Assembly (NCBI RefSeq): GCF_003719295.1
Contig: NZ_RFLW01000001.1
Span: 1,134,955-1,198,954, forward strand
DNA from: Haliea alexandrii
GTDB taxonomy: Bacteria > Pseudomonadota > Gammaproteobacteria > Pseudomonadales > Halieaceae
Direction: 5' to 3'
DNA length: 64,000 bases
Part shown: positions 42,014 through 48,589 of the stretch, one piece after another
How the letters are laid out: each line of letters starts with the position of its first letter
Numbering within the stretch: the first letter of the stretch is position 1
Program-made: the position numbers and the translations under genes
Notes under the pieces: generated by a model
The model's database searches: none
What the model was told of the DNA's origin: nothing
Seen by the model: only the letters and a program-made list of their open reading frames with translations

Positions 42014-42871
42014 ATGTCGCTGCAAACAAGTCAACGTGTGCTGTCCGGTGTGCTCTTCATGCTACTTCTCCTGCCTTTGTCGGCAGCCGCCCAGTTGCCC
42101 CTCAATATTGAAGAATTGCTGGTAACCGGCAGCACACTCAAGCTGCAGACCTTGCTCGGCTATAGCAGCACGGATCGTGTCCTCTCCGGCGGTATGCCGG
42201 TCATCCCGGGTACCTCGCCACTTCCGCTCGTCGATCACCAAACCCGTTCCGCAACGGCGGTTACGCGGCTGCGTTACGGTCTCAGTCGTACTGTCGAGAT
42301 CAACGCCAGTGTGCGGCGAACCCGCGTCGACTGGCAGCGCCCGGGAGCGTCCGGTGGCGGCGACGAATACGCGCTGGGGCTGGGAGCCAACTGGTTGGTG
42401 TCACCGGATACGAAAACCCCGGCGCTGTTGCTCACGGCCGGCCTCGATGCGGTGGAAACCAGTTGGCTGGCACCGGATGAACGTTACTTCGGCAAGTCGC
42501 TGCGCGCCGGGGCGCACGTCTACCGTGCGCTTGATCCAGTGGTACTTTCCCTGGCGGTTCTCTGCGAGTGGCGCGGCGCGCGCAGCATCGGTCCAAGTCG
42601 TTACTACCCGGGCGACACCCTGCGCCTGCAGCCACAAGTCAATTTTGCGGTGAACCCTCGGGTAACACTGATCGGCGGGCTCTCCTGGCAATATGCGGAA
42701 GCCGACCGTGTCGATGCGGTGCGCCCTGCGGGCAGCCTTTACCAGACCGATCTCTCTTTCGGCCTGGGCCTGCAAGCAGGCCGCGACTCAATCATTTTCG
42801 TTGACACGCGTGTCGCCACCAGTGGTGGTCGTGGTGCCAGCGTGGGTGTCGACTGGCACTACCAATTCTAG
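42014..42871 (+). CDS. Exported outer membrane beta-barrel protein (possible FapF-like pore)
   Basis: A 285-aa protein after a strong AAAGGAG site. Signal peptide about 1-27 (ends AAAQ). A short stretch (LPLNIEELLVTGSTLKL) precedes a row of alternating beta strands such as ATAVTRLRYGLSRTVEINAS and VTLIGGLSWQYAEADRVD, ending VDWHYQF with the final Phe expected for BAM-inserted barrels. About 12 strands could be fitted. Resemblance to phenol-pathway 'transporter' barrels or to FapF is by architecture only. It heads a group with a small exported protein, a small membrane protein and a C39-like protease, so it may be their export pore. Confidence 0.72.
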   Translation: MSLQTSQRVLSGVLFMLLLLPLSAAAQLPLNIEELLVTGSTLKLQTLLGYSSTDRVLSGGMPVIPGTSPLPLVDHQTRSATAVTRLRYGLSRTVEINASVRRTRVDWQRPGASGGGDEYALGLGANWLVSPDTKTPALLLTAGLDAVETSWLAPDERYFGKSLRAGAHVYRALDPVVLSLAVLCEWRGARSIGPSRYYPGDTLRLQPQVNFAVNPRVTLIGGLSWQYAEADRVDAVRPAGSLYQTDLSFGLGLQAGRDSIIFVDTRVATSGGRGASVGVDWHYQF

Positions 42872-42944
42872 CGTGGGAGTGGGGATGGGCCTGCCATGAG
42901 GGCAGGGTCCACAGCAGGATAACCTGTGTACAAGGAGACGTACC

Positions 42945-43274
42945 ATGAAAACACTAACGGCAATGAGCAGCAGCCTGGCGCTGGCTGCATTGATCTTCAA
43001 CCCACTGGCGGCGAGCGCGGCGCCCACGCAGGACACACCCTGGGTGGCCAGTGCGTTCGGCAGCGCGGGCACGGTACCGGAAGGCGCCACGCTGCTCGCC
43101 GCGCCGGAGCTGGCATCCAGTACCGGGCGACTGGCACCGCTGGCGGTTGCTCTCGGTATTGCGGGTGTGGACATCGCGCTGATGTCGTTTTATTGGGGGA
43201 TCTATGTTCCCCAGTACGGCGGCGGTGGTGGTTCCTGCGCGGTGTGTAACAACTCGAAATTCAATTCCCACTGA
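42945..43274 (+). CDS. Small exported protein with Gly-run and CxxC tail (candidate secreted/amyloid subunit)
   Basis: A 109-aa protein with an ideal AAGGAG ribosome site and a signal peptide ending ASAAP near residue 27. The middle is Ala/Gly/Ser/Thr-rich, then a hydrophobic segment (LAVALGIAGVDIALMSFYWG) leads to YGGGGGSCAVCNNSKFNSH at the very end. C39 proteases cut after Gly-Gly, so a 13-residue CxxC peptide could be released; alternatively the CxxC tail recalls the one reported for FapB/FapC amyloid proteins. Family not recognised. A terminator-like hairpin follows directly, which would make this the most abundant product of the unit. Confidence 0.7.
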   Translation: MKTLTAMSSSLALAALIFNPLAASAAPTQDTPWVASAFGSAGTVPEGATLLAAPELASSTGRLAPLAVALGIAGVDIALMSFYWGIYVPQYGGGGGSCAVCNNSKFNSH

Positions 43275-43284
43275 GTAGGCCGGG

Positions 43285-43331
43285 CAGCGCCCCATCGATG
43301 GGCTATGCTGTTGTCGTGGGGCGCTGTTTTT
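43285..43331 (+). terminator. Terminator/attenuator inside the C39-barrel locus
   Basis: CAGCGCCCCA and TGGGGCGCTG pair perfectly over 10 bp across a 22-base loop, followed by five T. It lies between the small exported protein gene and the two downstream genes, and may allow partial read-through. Confidence 0.7.
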
Positions 43332-43363
43332 CTGTCAATCGTGTAGACGTCTAGGAGGCCTGG

Positions 43364-43660
43364 ATGCGTGACCCTGCCCTGGAAAAAAAGCTCAGGGATT
43401 ATCGCTTTGAGCAACTTGAATTGCGCCACTCAATCCGCCTGCTGTTTCAGGGCAGTGTGGTGCTGGTGAGCCTTGTCGCCCTGCTGGTGGCCCTGTTCCA
43501 TGAGCACTGGCCCATGGCGGTGTTTCTGGCCCTGGCGGCGGCTGGTTTGGCCCTGGTTAGCGGGATATCGGCGCTGTTCAGTCGTCGTTGTGCACTGGCG
43601 GACCTGCAGCGGGAGTTGTCCCCCGGCGAGACCTATGAGCCGCCTCGTAGCGTCCTTTAG
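43364..43660 (+). CDS. Small two-helix inner membrane protein
   Basis: A 98-aa protein with a strong AGGAGG site. A charged N-terminus (MRDPALEKKLRDYRFEQLEL) precedes two hydrophobic helices (about 30-50, VVLVSLVALLVALF, and 55-70, AVFLALAAAGLALVSGI), then a polar tail (ADLQRELSPGETYEPP). The family is not recognised. It overlaps the start of the C39 protease gene by 26 bp, so the two are likely made together, and the helices may hold the protease or exporter at the inner membrane. Confidence 0.65.
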   Translation: MRDPALEKKLRDYRFEQLELRHSIRLLFQGSVVLVSLVALLVALFHEHWPMAVFLALAAAGLALVSGISALFSRRCALADLQRELSPGETYEPPRSVL

Positions 43661-44312
43661 GCAAGTCGCCCTGCGTGGCTGGGTAGTCCAGTTTGTACTG
43701 TGCCTTGGGAGTGTCCTGGCAGCGCCGTCGCTTCATGCCGGCGAAGCCGTGGCCTTTCGTTCCTGGCTTGAGCTGCGCGATGCCGGGGTGGTCAAACAGC
43801 AGCGTGATTTCTCCTGTGGTGTGGCGGCACTGGCCACCTACCTCAGTTTGTACCTCAATACATCGGTGTCCGAGGCCGAGCTGCTGCAGTTATTGCAGTT
43901 GCGCGGTGACGACTGGGGATTGCCCCAGGACTGGCGCGAGCAAGGCGTTTCCTATGCCATCCTTATGGCCCTCGCGGCACATCACGGTGTGCAGGGAGCG
44001 GGCCTTGCGGTGACACCCGAGCGCCTCATGTCACTGCGTGTACCGGCGATCGTGCGTCTGCAGGTGGACGGGGGTGCGCATTTCAGCGTGTTACGGGGCA
44101 TTGATCGCGCCGGGCGACTGCACCTGGCTGACCCGAGTTGGGGTAATCGCCAGCTGAGTTCGGACCGCTTCCTCGCCATGTGGCTGGACCCGGCGCAGAA
44201 CGCGCAGGTGGGGACTCTGCTGCTATTGCGTAGCGACAGAAGCAAAGTGCAGCCGCTTGACGGGCCCGACACACTGCAGCCGCGGCGGCCCCTGGTGCGT
44301 GCGCCCGGCTAG
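43635..44312 (+). CDS. Exported C39-like cysteine protease (FapD-like)
   Basis: A 225-aa protein that begins inside the previous gene. N-terminal signal/anchor (about 14-35: WVVQFVLCLGSVLAAPSLHAG), then one C39 domain: KQQRDFSCGVAALATYL carries the catalytic Cys near residue 58, GAHFSVLRGID the His and ADPSWGNRQLS the Asp. There is no ABC or membrane-transport domain, so it is a stand-alone protease, as in FapD of the Pseudomonas functional amyloid system, which is also about 225 aa. Its likely target is the Gly-rich tail protein encoded just upstream. Confidence 0.8.
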   Translation: MSRLVASFRQVALRGWVVQFVLCLGSVLAAPSLHAGEAVAFRSWLELRDAGVVKQQRDFSCGVAALATYLSLYLNTSVSEAELLQLLQLRGDDWGLPQDWREQGVSYAILMALAAHHGVQGAGLAVTPERLMSLRVPAIVRLQVDGGAHFSVLRGIDRAGRLHLADPSWGNRQLSSDRFLAMWLDPAQNAQVGTLLLLRSDRSKVQPLDGPDTLQPRRPLVRAPG

Positions 44313-44389: not shown

Positions 44390-46174
44390 ATGATGGAGTG
44401 TCTTGCGGCTATGAGGTATGCGTGCAGTGCCCTGTTGAGCGGGTTGGTTTTGCTGGTATCAGTGTCAGGGCTGGAGGCGCATGCCGCTTCCGCGGATGAA
44501 CAGCTGCGGGCCTTGTACGAAGCCGAATACAGCTGGCGACAGGCCCAGTGGGGGCAGGTCCGTGATGCCCAGGGCGGCTGGCGAGATGGCCCTGCGCTGC
44601 CACACGTCGATGCCGCCACCCAGCGGGACAGGTTGACGTACTGGGACAACAGCCTGGCACAGCTGGCGGCAATACCCCGCGGCGCGTTGAGCGCCGAGGG
44701 CAAGATCAATGCCGCTGTTTTTGAGCAAATCGTCACCGCGCTGGCGGACGAGGTGCGCTTCGCAACGTACGAAGCACCGCTCAACTCCGACACCTTTTTC
44801 TGGAGTGGCCTGTACCCGCGTATGGGTGGCTTCCAGACGGAGCCGGCTTACCGTGACTACTTGCAGCGGCTGGCCCAGTTGCCGCGCTTCTTCGCCCAGC
44901 ATCAGGCCAATATGCGCATGGGATTGGCGCGGGGTTACAGCGTGCCATTCGTCTCTTTGCAAGGGCGGGAGCGTTCCCTCGAAGCCTACCTCGCTGCGGG
45001 CGAGGACAATCCCTTCTGGTCTCCCATGGCGGCTATGCCCGCGCAGTGGCCGCAGGCGCTGAAGGTCGAACTGCAGGCAGAGGCGCGCACAGTCATCAAT
45101 GCCGCCGTGGTGCCCGCCTACACCGAGCTCTTGCAATTCATGCGTGAGGAGTACCTGCCGCAGACGCGCAGGTCGCTGGCGGCGCGCGATCTGCCCAACG
45201 GCGACGCGTTCTACCAGGCCCAGATCCGCAACTTCACCACGCTCGCCCTGAATGCCGAGGAGATCCACCAAATAGGCCTTGCAGAGGTCGCCCGTATCCG
45301 CGCCGAGATGGATGCTGTGCGGGCCTCCACCGGGTTTGATGGCGATATGCAGGCGTTCCTGCAGTTCCTGCGGTCCGACCCCCGCTTTTATGCGCAAACG
45401 CCCCACGAATTGCTGGCTTTCACCGCCTGGGTGGCCAAGCGAGTGGATGGTCAGCTAGCTGCCAATCTGGGGTTTCTCCCCCGCAGGCGCTACACCATAT
45501 TGCCAGTGCCGGATGCCATCGCGCCGTTCTATACCGGGGGGCGGGGCGGTCTGGAAAGCTGCCTGTTCAATACCTACGACTTGCCCTCGCGCCCTTTATA
45601 TACGCTCACTGCCCTGACCTTGCATGAGTGCGCGCCGGGGCATTCCCTACAGGCGGCCATTGCCCGCGAGGCGCCGGGCGACATTCCGGAGTTTCGCGCC
45701 AACAACTACTTCTCCGGTTACGGGGAAGGGTGGGGCTTGTATACCGAGTGGTTGGGCATCGAAATGGGGGTGTACGATACGCCCTACGAACACTTCGGCC
45801 GCCTCTCGTACGAAATGTGGCGTGCGGCACGTCTGGTGATCGACACCGGCTTGCATCACTACGGCTGGAGCCGCGAGCGCGCCCAAGCCTATTTGCGCGA
45901 CAACACCGCGCTGTCCGAGCACGAGCTGACCACCGAGATTGATCGCTACATTTCCTGGCCGGCACAGGCCCTATCCTACAAGTTGGGTGAGATGCTGATT
46001 CGGCGCAAACGCGGCGAAGCCGAGGCGGCGCTGGGAGCGTCATTCGACAAACGCTATTTCCACGACACCATTCTCGGTCTGCGCTCTGTGCCGCTGACGG
46101 TGCTGGAGCAGGCGCTGGATCAATGGGTCGCAGCCGGGGGCCCCGATCCCTACGCCAATGCCGCGGTTCAGTGA
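44390..46174 (+). CDS. Exported DUF885 family protein (putative metallo-hydrolase)
   Basis: A 594-aa protein with a signal peptide ([20 protein letters not shown] region). The DUF885 signature is [19 protein letters not shown] near residue 408, an HExxxGH-like motif that suggests zinc, followed by [16 protein letters not shown]. Family members are large periplasmic or membrane-linked proteins of poorly defined peptidase-like activity. Start uncertain: ATG 44390, 44393 and 44411 are all possible, and none has a perfect ribosome site. The stop overlaps the convergent FisR-like gene by 7 bp. No clear link to the C39 locus beyond direction. Confidence 0.8.
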
Positions 46175-47487
46175 TCGGTGAGCGTCTGTCCGAGTTTGCG
46201 GTAGAGGCTGCGTACACTGATCCCGGCAATGCTGGCGGCGCGCGCCTTGTCGCCTTCACAGTGTGCCAGCAGGCTCTCCAGATATTGTGTTTCCTGTGTT
46301 CGCAGATCGGTCCAGGCACTGGCTGGCGGCGCCGGTGGTGTCAGCGTCTGGCCGATGCAGCGTTCCAGAATGCGGTGGTCGATGATATCGCCCTGGGCAA
46401 ACACCAGCGCCCGTTCCAGTACGTTGCGTAGCTCGCGGATGTTGCCCGGGAACGGTTCCTGTTGCAGGCGTTGCACGGCAGACTCGGTCAGGCGAATGGG
46501 GCGCCCGTCTCGCAGTTTTCCCAGGATGGAGTTGGCGAGCAAGGCCAGGTCCTCGCGGCGCTCGCGCAGGGCGGGCAGGTGAATGGGGAAGGCGTTAATG
46601 CGGTAGAAAAGATCGCGGCGAAAGCTGCCCTCGTCAACCATGGCCGCCAGGTTCTTGTGGGTGGCGCAGATAAGGCGAAAGTCGGCATGGCGCAGCGTTG
46701 TGCTGCCCACCGGGCGCCAGGTGCCTGTCTCCAGCAGGCGCAGCAGCTTGACCTGCATGCCCAGGGGGACATCGCCAATCTCATCCAGAAACAGTGTGCC
46801 GCCCTGTGCCGATTCCAGTAACCCGGGTTTGTCCTGCGTGGCGCCGGTAAACGCGCCCCGGACGTGCCCGAACAGTTCGCTCTCGAACAGAGTTTCGGTC
46901 AAACCGGCGCATTCAACTGCCACCAGTGGGCGCTCCCGGCGCGCGCTCGCCTGATGAATCGCGCTCGCTGCCAGCTCCTTGCCGGTACCGGACTCGCCCA
47001 ATAGCAGGATGGAGGTTTCGTGGGGCGCCACCAGATTAACCAGGTGCACCAGGGCGTTGAACGCGGCGCTGCGGCCCACCATCTGCCGCGTACTCAGCTC
47101 GGCGCTGGCGACCGTGACCGGTGTCAGCAGTTCAACGAAATAGAGCAGCTCGCCAGCATCATCGTGAATGGGCAGCATCGCCACGTCCACGTGTTGGCGC
47201 CCCTCGGGTGAAAGGTGCACGTGTAGTACCCGCTCTTTCTTGCCACTCGCCCGGGCCGCGGCCAGTGGGCAGCTTTCTCCTGCCTGGTCGCAGGGTACCT
47301 GGTAGCCGTGTGAGACCTCAAAACAGTGGGCCGGGGTTGCGGCGTCGAGCTCGCCGAAGCTTTCCCGGTAGGCGCTGTTGGTCGCCAGAATACGGTATTC
47401 CGGGGTTACCAGGATGGCGGGGCAATCGTAGCCCTCCAGCATGCGGGCCAGTGCGCGGTCGGTATCGGTGGCGATCAGTTCGCTCAT
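46168..47487 (-). CDS. FisR-like sigma54 activator responding to sulfane sulfur
   Basis: A 439-aa sigma54-dependent activator. Residues ~15-125 are a PAS-like sensor with three cysteines, Cys55, Cys66 and Cys73 (C-x10-C-x6-C), the spacing described for FisR, which senses polysulfide. An AAA+ domain follows with Walker A GESGTGKE (about 164), GAFTGATQ for sigma54 contact (about 209) and Walker [12 protein letters not shown]. The C-terminus is a Fis-type helix-turn-helix ([21 protein letters not shown]). It is divergent from a persulfide dioxygenase/SQR operon that has a sigma54 promoter, so activation of that operon is the clear expectation. Confidence 0.88.
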
Positions 47488-47646: not shown

Positions 47647-47692
47647 GTAGTACCTCACAAGCCCTATACCCGTAATCAGTGAGGTGGATGTC

Positions 47693-48589
47693 ATGCAAGC
47701 AACGGTCAATTTTCAGGTGGATCTGCAATGCCGGCCGGAAGTCGTGCCTTTTTTCGATGCCGACACCCATACGTTTTCCTATGTGGTGCGCGATCCGGCG
47801 AGTACCGCCTGCGCGGTGGTCGACTCGGTGCTGGATATAGACTACGCAGCCGGCCGCATCAGCACCACCAGTGCGGATCGCATTCTCGACTACATCCGCC
47901 AGCACGGCCTGGCACTGGAGTGGATCATCGAGACCCATGTGCACGCGGATCACCTGTCCGCGGCGCCGTATTTGCAGGATGCCCTCGGCGGCAAGATCGG
48001 CATAGGCGAGCACATCGTGACGGTACAGGAGACCTTTGGCAGCGTCTTCAATGCAGGCGCTGACTTCGCGCGCGACGGTTCGCAATTCGACCGTCTTTTC
48101 ACGGACGGTGACCGCTATCAGGTGGGCAGTATGACGTGCCATGCCATGCACACGCCCGGCCATACGCCAGCCTGCATGGTGCATGTGATGGGTGACGCCG
48201 CGTTTGTCGGTGACACCCTGTTCATGCCGGATGGCGGCACCGCGCGCGCCGACTTCCCCGGAGGCGATGCGCGTACACTGTATCGCTCTATCCAGCGCGT
48301 GTTGTCGCTGCCCGGCGAGACGCGCCTGTTCATGTGTCATGACTACATGCCCAATGGCCGCGAGCTCGAATATGAGACCAGCGTGGCGGCGGAGCTGGCC
48401 GACAACATTCATGTGCACACCGGTATCAGTGAGGACGACTTCGTGCGCATGCGCGAAGCCCGGGATGCAACACTGGATATGCCGCGCCTGATTCTGCCTT
48501 CACTGCAGGTGAATATGCGTGCCGGCCACCTGCCCGCGGCGGAAGACAATGCAACGGTTTACCTGAAGCTGCCCATCAACGCGCTCTGA
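47693..48589 (+). CDS. MBL-fold persulfide dioxygenase (ETHE1/PDO-like)
   Basis: A 298-aa metallo-beta-lactamase-fold protein. Iron-binding motifs: THVHADHLSAAPYL (about 82), MHTPGHTPACMV (about 153), GDTLFMPDGGTARADFPGGD (about 176) and MCHDYMPNGREL. The last two match bacterial persulfide dioxygenases, which oxidise glutathione persulfide to sulfite. ATG 47693 lies after GAGGTGGA; a GTG at 47684 is an alternative. First gene of the sulfide operon, directly behind the sigma54 promoter; the next gene encodes the quinone reductase that makes the persulfide. Confidence 0.88.
   Translation: MQATVNFQVDLQCRPEVVPFFDADTHTFSYVVRDPASTACAVVDSVLDIDYAAGRISTTSADRILDYIRQHGLALEWIIETHVHADHLSAAPYLQDALGGKIGIGEHIVTVQETFGSVFNAGADFARDGSQFDRLFTDGDRYQVGSMTCHAMHTPGHTPACMVHVMGDAAFVGDTLFMPDGGTARADFPGGDARTLYRSIQRVLSLPGETRLFMCHDYMPNGRELEYETSVAAELADNIHVHTGISEDDFVRMREARDATLDMPRLILPSLQVNMRAGHLPAAEDNATVYLKLPINAL

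Follow-up and report, generated by a model that had tools for sequence, protein, structure and literature searches.

Secretion of the functional amyloid Fap of Pseudomonas (fapABCDEF) needs an active FapD protease, and the accessible text of the reports of 2017 (PMC5557850) and 2018 (PMC6173800) left the substrate of FapD open; these and all papers below are cited from the parts of their text that were accessible. Co-localized homologues of fapD and fapF had already been noted in five further phyla (PMC6173800), so the fapD–fapF pair itself is not new, and all homologues of the outer-membrane barrel FapF are stated to carry a periplasmic coiled coil (PMC6173795). The leader consensus of C39 peptidases reads L(-12)xxxE(-8)L(-7)xxxxG(-2)G(-1) (PMC6959990, PMC6363468), and the -10 to -4 stretch of a PCAT substrate docks as a helix in a solved complex (PMC6959990). 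Here we compare with these systems a set of four genes at positions 42014–44312 of a 64,000-nucleotide stretch of the Haliea alexandrii genome (contig NZ_RFLW01000001.1; the whole stretch is referred to below as the window). The genes encode an outer-membrane barrel, a 109-residue exported precursor, a two-helix protein and a stand-alone C39 protease, and together they probably cut a short hydrophobic peptide from the precursor and export it.

RESULTS

A conserved double-glycine-type site in the 109-residue precursor

All four genes are open and lie on the same (+) strand in the order barrel, precursor, two-helix protein and protease, as a preliminary description made from the DNA letters had listed them. 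The precursor, or cargo gene (42945–43274, +), has no match to any Pfam or NCBIfam model at E≤1. It begins with a Sec signal peptide of approximately residues 1–26 (42945–43022, +; predicted helix 3–17), which, like the signal peptides and membrane helices of all four proteins, was judged by eye, and it ends with the tail YGGGGGSCAVCNNSKFNSH, as described previously. Comparison of homologues and the published consensus place a double-glycine-type C39 site, LAAPELASSTGR, at residues 51–62 (43095–43130, +), which reads L(-12)AAPE(-8)L(-7)ASSTG(-2)R(-1), with L51, E55 and L56 at positions -12, -8 and -7 and G61 at -2. The predicted cut falls after R62 or G61 and would leave a mature peptide of 47 residues (63–109; 43131–43271, +), composed of a hydrophobic helix (64–84) and a Gly-rich tail bearing a CxxC motif (C98, C101; 43236–43247, +). 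The mature length of approximately 80 residues proposed preliminarily thus agrees with the 83 residues remaining after removal of the signal peptide, but not with the approximately 47 that would remain after the C39 cut.

The strict pattern L...EL....G fits the window protein exactly and occurs in 0.155% of 20,000 shuffled versions of the sequence behind its signal peptide, and the predicted helix 53–60, i.e. positions -10 to -3, matches the docked PCAT helix. Across 44 distinct homologues (58 loci yielded 44 sequences with identical proteins counted once, to which the window protein was added and from which the weak match L040 was removed), G(-2) is invariant (44/44) and lies at residue 52–67. 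Position -12 is L/V/M/F/I in 43 of the 44, mostly L/V/M, whereas -11 is mostly S/D, -8 mostly E/A (E in 21/44) and -7 mostly L/M/A (L/M in 30/44). Position -1 is more varied, with R in 18, G in 13, K in 6, E in 5 and A and Q in one homologue each, and the lineage that includes Luminiphilus and HTCC2080 has ...MESTRGG at this point, with a literal Gly-Gly. Of 43 homologues, 15 were compared with the window protein, and in 14 of these conservation is higher behind the site than in the segment that follows the signal peptide and precedes the site; L032, for example, shares 25 of 42 post-site residues vs 3 of 19 pre-site residues, and the fifteenth homologue, L021, is equal in both.

Inspection by eye also showed a further short box, AF accompanied by G, D or A, some residues upstream of the site in the cargo of barrel-bearing loci, for instance at L118 7632–8018, L115 622–867 and L140 6272–6667 and at residues 36–39 of the window precursor; this box may be read by the barrel or the protease.

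The site recurs beside other C39 genes

A profile of the site, trained on Halieaceae alone, was applied to 55 loci, some related to each other, around FapD-like C39 genes of other Gammaproteobacteria. These came from a FapD search of 369 genomes that gave 64 match rows, none of which reached the FapD cut-off; six rows in frames of 705–1052 residues (ABC-type size) were left out, as were the row that is the window's own match and the match G696:C6:538411. At a threshold score of at least 10, and with a crude pattern as export filter, the profile matched 43 of 313 near exported open reading frames (within 1.8 kb, same strand) vs 4 of 656 far ones (more than 2.5 kb away) and 0.85% of shuffles, and 37 of the 55 loci had at least one such near neighbour. 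A further 14 C39 loci of relatives, none with the 109-residue family beside that C39, were scored without the export filter, and eight of them had a neighbour at 10 or above. Three of these eight (L152–L154) seem, by eye, to encode a remote homologue of this cargo that is longer.

One genome (G480) contains seven FapD-like C39 matches (at loci including L115, L116, L117, L145, L146 and L147), and barrels of the P0001 type adjoin C39 genes there. When its seven precursors were compared, four shared 49–55 of 65 leader residues, the other three being more distant (21–42 of 55–64), and directly behind the site the same four had at most 15 of 53 aligned residues in common. The G480 cargo behind the site ranges from 27 to approximately 290 residues and has the appearance of an interchangeable set of secreted proteins. 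Elsewhere, locus L118 encodes, besides a barrel and a C39 protein, a 129-residue precursor (LSDQEMKNTEGA followed by a Gly-rich stretch), a small membrane protein and one additional exported protein, and its precursor gives a sub-threshold match to a class IIb bacteriocin model over the site (16.8 bits; cut-off 21.5). The additional protein, of 277–316 residues, looks alike in L118 (6250–7197), L140 (5061–5891) and L141 (3884–4798) and is absent from the window set.

As a separate observation, other exported proteins near C39 genes carry, directly behind the signal peptide, a variant of the site with TGQ or SGQ at its end (L110 6860–7750 and 9012–11191; L156 4861–6998; L137 386–1759), and these may constitute another large group of substrates for periplasmic C39 proteases.

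The site in FapE-position genes

In each of the 15 loci that score highest with the FapD model (196.9 to 284 bits), the gene after FapD, i.e. in the FapE position, contains [LIVM]x4[LM]x4G[RK]. The one FapE-position protein that was scanned matched the NCBIfam FapE model with 80.5 bits (cut-off 250) from residue 45 on, its site being residues 49–60, and the barrel of another of these 15 Fap loci matched NCBIfam FapF with 412.6 bits (cut-off 700). The link from these genes to the studied Pseudomonas strains would be one of homology; in plasmid records FapE had no match. Published mass spectra, in the accessible text, include no FapE peptides from the first approximately 70 residues (PMC5557850). 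Among the papers listed by a full-text search that was largely without subscription papers, no title or start of an abstract mentions a leader motif of periplasmic C39 proteases or a cut site in FapE, and in the accessible part of a polymorphic-toxin paper of 2012 C39 appears only as a toxin domain (PMC3482391). A similar site with G-A at its end, for example VEGDALAGVNGA, lies fairly close to the N-terminus in the FapB-position genes of some Fap loci (L095 7510–8199, L096 7144–7779, L100 5510–6166).

The protease, the two-helix protein and the conservation of the set

The last gene encodes an exported C39 cysteine protease of 225 residues with a signal-peptide-like start (43635–44312, +). Comparison with relatives places its start best at the ATG at 43635, where it overlaps the end of the two-helix gene, up to the stop, by 26 bases. 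It matches Pfam Peptidase_C39 with 52.2 bits (cut-off 22), NCBIfam FapD with 63.1 bits (cut-off 330) and NCBIfam FilB with 54.8 bits (cut-off 475), and is thus FapD-like without reaching the equivalog cut-off. Residues Q55, C61 (codon 43815–43817), H149 and D166 are invariant in 16 aligned C39 proteins, and we therefore rejected an inactive, chaperone-like C39. It is the single Peptidase_C39 match in its own genome, where an ABC transporter with fused C39 is accordingly absent. The C39 reading frames of L022 and L045 are interrupted by a stretch of unknown bases, and neither locus entered data set A2 or the C39 tree; A2 also omits L033 and L038, and the tree also omits L039 and L061.

Preceding it is a 98-residue protein (43364–43660, +) with the N-terminus MRDPALEKKLRDYRFEQL, two hydrophobic stretches taken as membrane helices and, by eye, no signal peptide. 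Of the 30 loci with a barrel, 28 have a homologue of this two-helix protein, and the same threshold gave none in the other loci.

Of 97 genomes, 19 contain the 109-residue family, counting that of the window; all 19 are Halieaceae, and they include 8/8 genomes of the window's genus. A search of 390 genomes of the order added one genome of the same family (G041) and one doubtful outside match (G249), which was later dropped, and scanning named genomes yielded 38 loci, the majority with Halieaceae titles or genera (Kineobactrum, Luminiphilus, Chromatocurvus, Pseudohaliea) and including HTCC2080, as well as a Haliea salexigens homologue with 96% identity. Among 58 wide loci (L021–L078), in which some species are represented twice, a C39 gene accompanies the cargo in 54 by profile, and also in L061, which the profile missed and tblastn recovered; in two of the three others, L066 and L072, the sequence ends soon after the cargo gene, and the third, L040, holds an unconvincing homologue and was dropped. 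The cargo gene is thus kept with the C39 gene in relatives, which was the conservation check proposed preliminarily. A barrel is present in 30 of the 58. We conclude that the four-gene set is a conserved unit of Halieaceae. A FumC gene and a DUF885 peptidase gene flank the set in 8/8 loci L021–L028, and a TonB receptor gene in 7/8; L029 has only the TonB gene of these, and more distant loci have none of the three.

The barrel and the cysteine pair

The first gene (42014–42871, +) encodes a barrel of 285 residues with a signal peptide of approximately residues 1–26. In a structure model (predicted local distance difference test, pLDDT, 84; 15 sequences), which like our other models was made from proteins of the window and of related loci, 12 main strands follow from residue 42 on, and a short N-terminal helix spans 30–33. 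The top Foldseek matches are FapF crystal structures (E 4.5e-13; template modelling score 0.70), with the COG4313 channel (4rl8) at ranks 6–7. By sequence, no Pfam or NCBIfam model, FapF included, matches at E≤1, a sequence-only search of the PDB with the barrel profile gave FapF below threshold (E 0.49), and of the 15 Fap loci, searched as a small set, 5 have an operon barrel that this profile matches with E 4e-7 to 6e-4. The FapF model had no match in the window's own genome, nor did it match anything in the controls, and the C39 and barrel-profile searches found the window copies only. As the first strand begins at residue 42 and the signal peptide ends at approximately 26, a coiled coil would not fit in between. 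The preliminary view of the locus as Fap-like is sustained in part, by the FapD-like, if sub-cut-off, C39 protein and by FapF as the best structural match of the barrel, but not by any FapA, FapB, FapC or FapE match, nor by a coiled coil; in the proposed model comparison, FapD matched the protease below its cut-off and FapF gave no match to the barrel at E≤1.

On the C39 tree (39 rows), 16 barrel-bearing loci form one group (99/98), and the barrel was therefore gained or lost once. The cysteine pair of the tail is found in 17 of the 18 homologues with an adjacent barrel (16 as CxxC; L066 as CxxxC; the exception is L030, on the same contig as L056) and in 0/26 without one. Because the barrel label is a single change on this tree, we treat the CxxC–barrel association as one event and reject it as independent evidence.

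The surroundings of the set

Downstream of the cargo gene and ahead of the last two genes is a strong hairpin followed by a T run (43282–43331, +), a candidate terminator or attenuator, with z = -3.26 in the window relative to shuffles (in S.D. units) and z from -1.23 to -4.63 in the seven relatives folded; a simple terminator scan missed it owing to the loop limit of the scan. The cargo may therefore be made in larger amount than the protease. Downstream are genes that we named by eye as a sigma-54-type regulator (46168–47487, -) and a divergent metallo-beta-lactamase-fold protein (47684–48589, +), which probably have no relation to the four-gene set.

DISCUSSION

Gene linkage, the conserved site, its enrichment beside C39 genes, the FapF-type predicted fold and the intact catalytic residues, all drawn from comparison, point to a compact secretion route dedicated to this cargo, which on this sequence basis we consider probable. 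The 109-residue precursor would cross the inner membrane by Sec and, to judge from its N-terminus, lose approximately residues 1–26. The periplasmic C39 protease would then dock the helix ending at G61 through L51, E55 and L56 and cut behind R62 of the G61-R62 pair or at the preceding bond, which would release a pro-segment of approximately 36 residues, as the motif, the conserved catalytic residues and the gene linkage suggest. The freed hydrophobic peptide of approximately 47 residues, with its Gly-CxxC tail, may pass through, or be inserted by, the FapF-type barrel, a step suggested by fold and linkage, and the two-helix inner-membrane protein might assist, for example as an anchor for the protease or the hydrophobic cargo, although this last role is a guess. 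By the same rule, FapD would cut FapE at the L/V/I-x4-L/M-x4-G-R/K site. The peptide most likely has a constant surface or envelope function, because its sequence has changed less than that of the pro-segment and the genomic position of the locus is stable in Haliea.

We see an even chance that the set belongs to a general Gram-negative route, in which a double-glycine-type leader behind a Sec signal would be read by a stand-alone periplasmic C39 protease, often together with a FapF-type barrel. The cargo of such a route would be interchangeable, comprising FapE, the Halieaceae CxxC peptides, Gly-rich bacteriocin-like peptides and long variable multi-copy cargo, and Fap would be a specialized branch in which FapE is a direct FapD substrate.

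Several observations weigh against the proposed cut and export. At the site itself, the window has Arg at -1, where the studied C39 leaders, in the accessible literature, end in Gly-Gly, Gly-Ala or Gly-Ser, and the exact cut bond is therefore uncertain; in addition, -7 is Ala in 11 of the 44 homologues, the strict L...EL....G is found in only eight of them, and the structure model of the cargo, which used 37 of the 39 available precursor rows, is weak (pLDDT 61.5). At other C39 loci, 18 of the 55 tested have no neighbour scoring at least 10, and some of these 55 are related to one another (15 Fap loci; seven C39 copies of one genome); 4 of the 14 further loci lack a neighbour even at a score of at least 8, one far match sits inside a Fap operon, and two of the four G480 cargos that differ behind the site (L116 and L117) are alike in their C-terminal part. 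The barrel profile is silent, or at E 1e-3 or above, in 10 of the 15 Fap loci, and the kept FumC/DUF885 neighbourhood is limited to the eight closest distinct loci. Furthermore, the barrel is not adjacent to the cargo in 26 of 44 homologues, and its profile found no match anywhere in the whole of three barrel-less genomes, so export through the barrel cannot be general.

Two further explanations are compatible with the cut. The cargo could be a Gram-negative bacteriocin-like peptide, membrane-active once freed by Sec and the periplasmic C39 protease, with the two-helix protein conferring immunity. The double-glycine-type leader, the Gly-rich cargo of L118 with its class IIb match, the variable cargo of G480 in several copies and the position of the two-helix gene beside the cargo in most barrel-bearing loci would all suit such a role. 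However, in Haliea both cargo and two-helix protein are conserved and not hypervariable, the cargo is present throughout the genus and the FumC and DUF885 flank is constant in the eight closest loci, and we therefore think this explanation unlikely, if worth keeping in view. Somewhat less likely still is a minimal Fap functional amyloid, in which C39 would license, and the barrel export, the 109-residue protein as a small subunit of a fibre. Its attractions are the FapD-like C39, the FapF fold and the C-terminal CxxC, which is shared with some Pseudomonas FapC proteins (PMC3684753), but the 109 residues contain, by eye, no visible repeats or Q/N-rich stretch, the weak model gives the mature part a single hydrophobic helix and a tail, Pfam and NCBIfam have no match, and the barrel has no room for the coiled coil.

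It is also improbable that no C39 cut takes place, the 109-residue protein being an uncut envelope protein and the motif a structural helix. A non-Gly residue at -1 in 31 of 44 homologues speaks for this, as does the fact that the cut is predicted here from sequence, whereas the motif is common to different cargo beside C39 genes and marks the boundary between leader and cargo in G480, and the catalytic residues of the protease are invariant. Very unlikely, in our estimation, is the barrel as the target of C39 in place of the 109-residue protein, with removal of an N-terminal plug as was proposed as a possibility for FapD and FapF (PMC5557850): some related barrels do have GG directly after the N-terminal helix, but no Gly is kept there among 17 aligned barrels, for which reason we rejected it, and C39 and the 109-residue protein persist in barrel-less lineages. 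The C-terminal Gly-Gly cut of the preliminary description, freeing a CxxC peptide of approximately 13 residues, we reject as having hardly any likelihood, since, for all that 17 of 18 homologues with an adjacent barrel share the cysteine pair with the window, the pair is absent from 27 of 44 homologues and the tail Gly-Gly from 28 with the C39 gene retained, whereas G61, in the C39 consensus at residues 51–62, is kept in all 44.

Returning to the cut near G61-R62 and export of the hydrophobic peptide, we compared the set with described systems. With Fap it shares the exported C39 protease, the 12-strand FapF-type barrel, a signal-bearing cargo, a C-terminal CxxC as in some FapC proteins and the double-glycine-type site of the FapE-position genes. 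It differs in consisting of four genes, none matching the FapA, FapB, FapC or FapE models (the absence of FapA and FapE had been recognized from the start), in a 47-residue hydrophobic cargo in place of repeat-bearing amyloid subunits, in a barrel without coiled-coil room and in the extra two-helix protein; with FapE in particular only the 12-residue site is in common. Class II bacteriocins and PCAT leaders share the leader consensus (PMC6959990) and a small hydrophobic mature part, but in the window the leader lies behind a Sec-type signal, the C39 is stand-alone and exported rather than ABC-fused, Arg occupies -1 and a barrel takes the place of the type I channel. The Fil putative pilus system of Acinetobacter resembles the set in that FilB is a C39 model matched by the window protease, and the FapF homologue of L095 matches FilC (65 bits), although all these matches are below curated cut-offs and the likeness rests on the NCBIfam FilB and FilC models. 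COG4313 outer-membrane channels (4rl8) share the barrel fold, but are uptake channels for which C39 partners are not reported in the accessible text of PMC6173800. Within the literature searched, no described system has exactly this gene set, as had been supposed.

The four-gene set would thus be a Fap-type hybrid secretion variant, and one that may hold an answer to the FapD substrate question. The Halieaceae system isolates the protease, the barrel and one short cargo, and its comparison exposes a cut signal that is also present in FapE-position genes. If this is true, the FapD question would reduce to an assay with one enzyme and one peptide, and the cargo of unannotated C39 loci would become findable by its leader.

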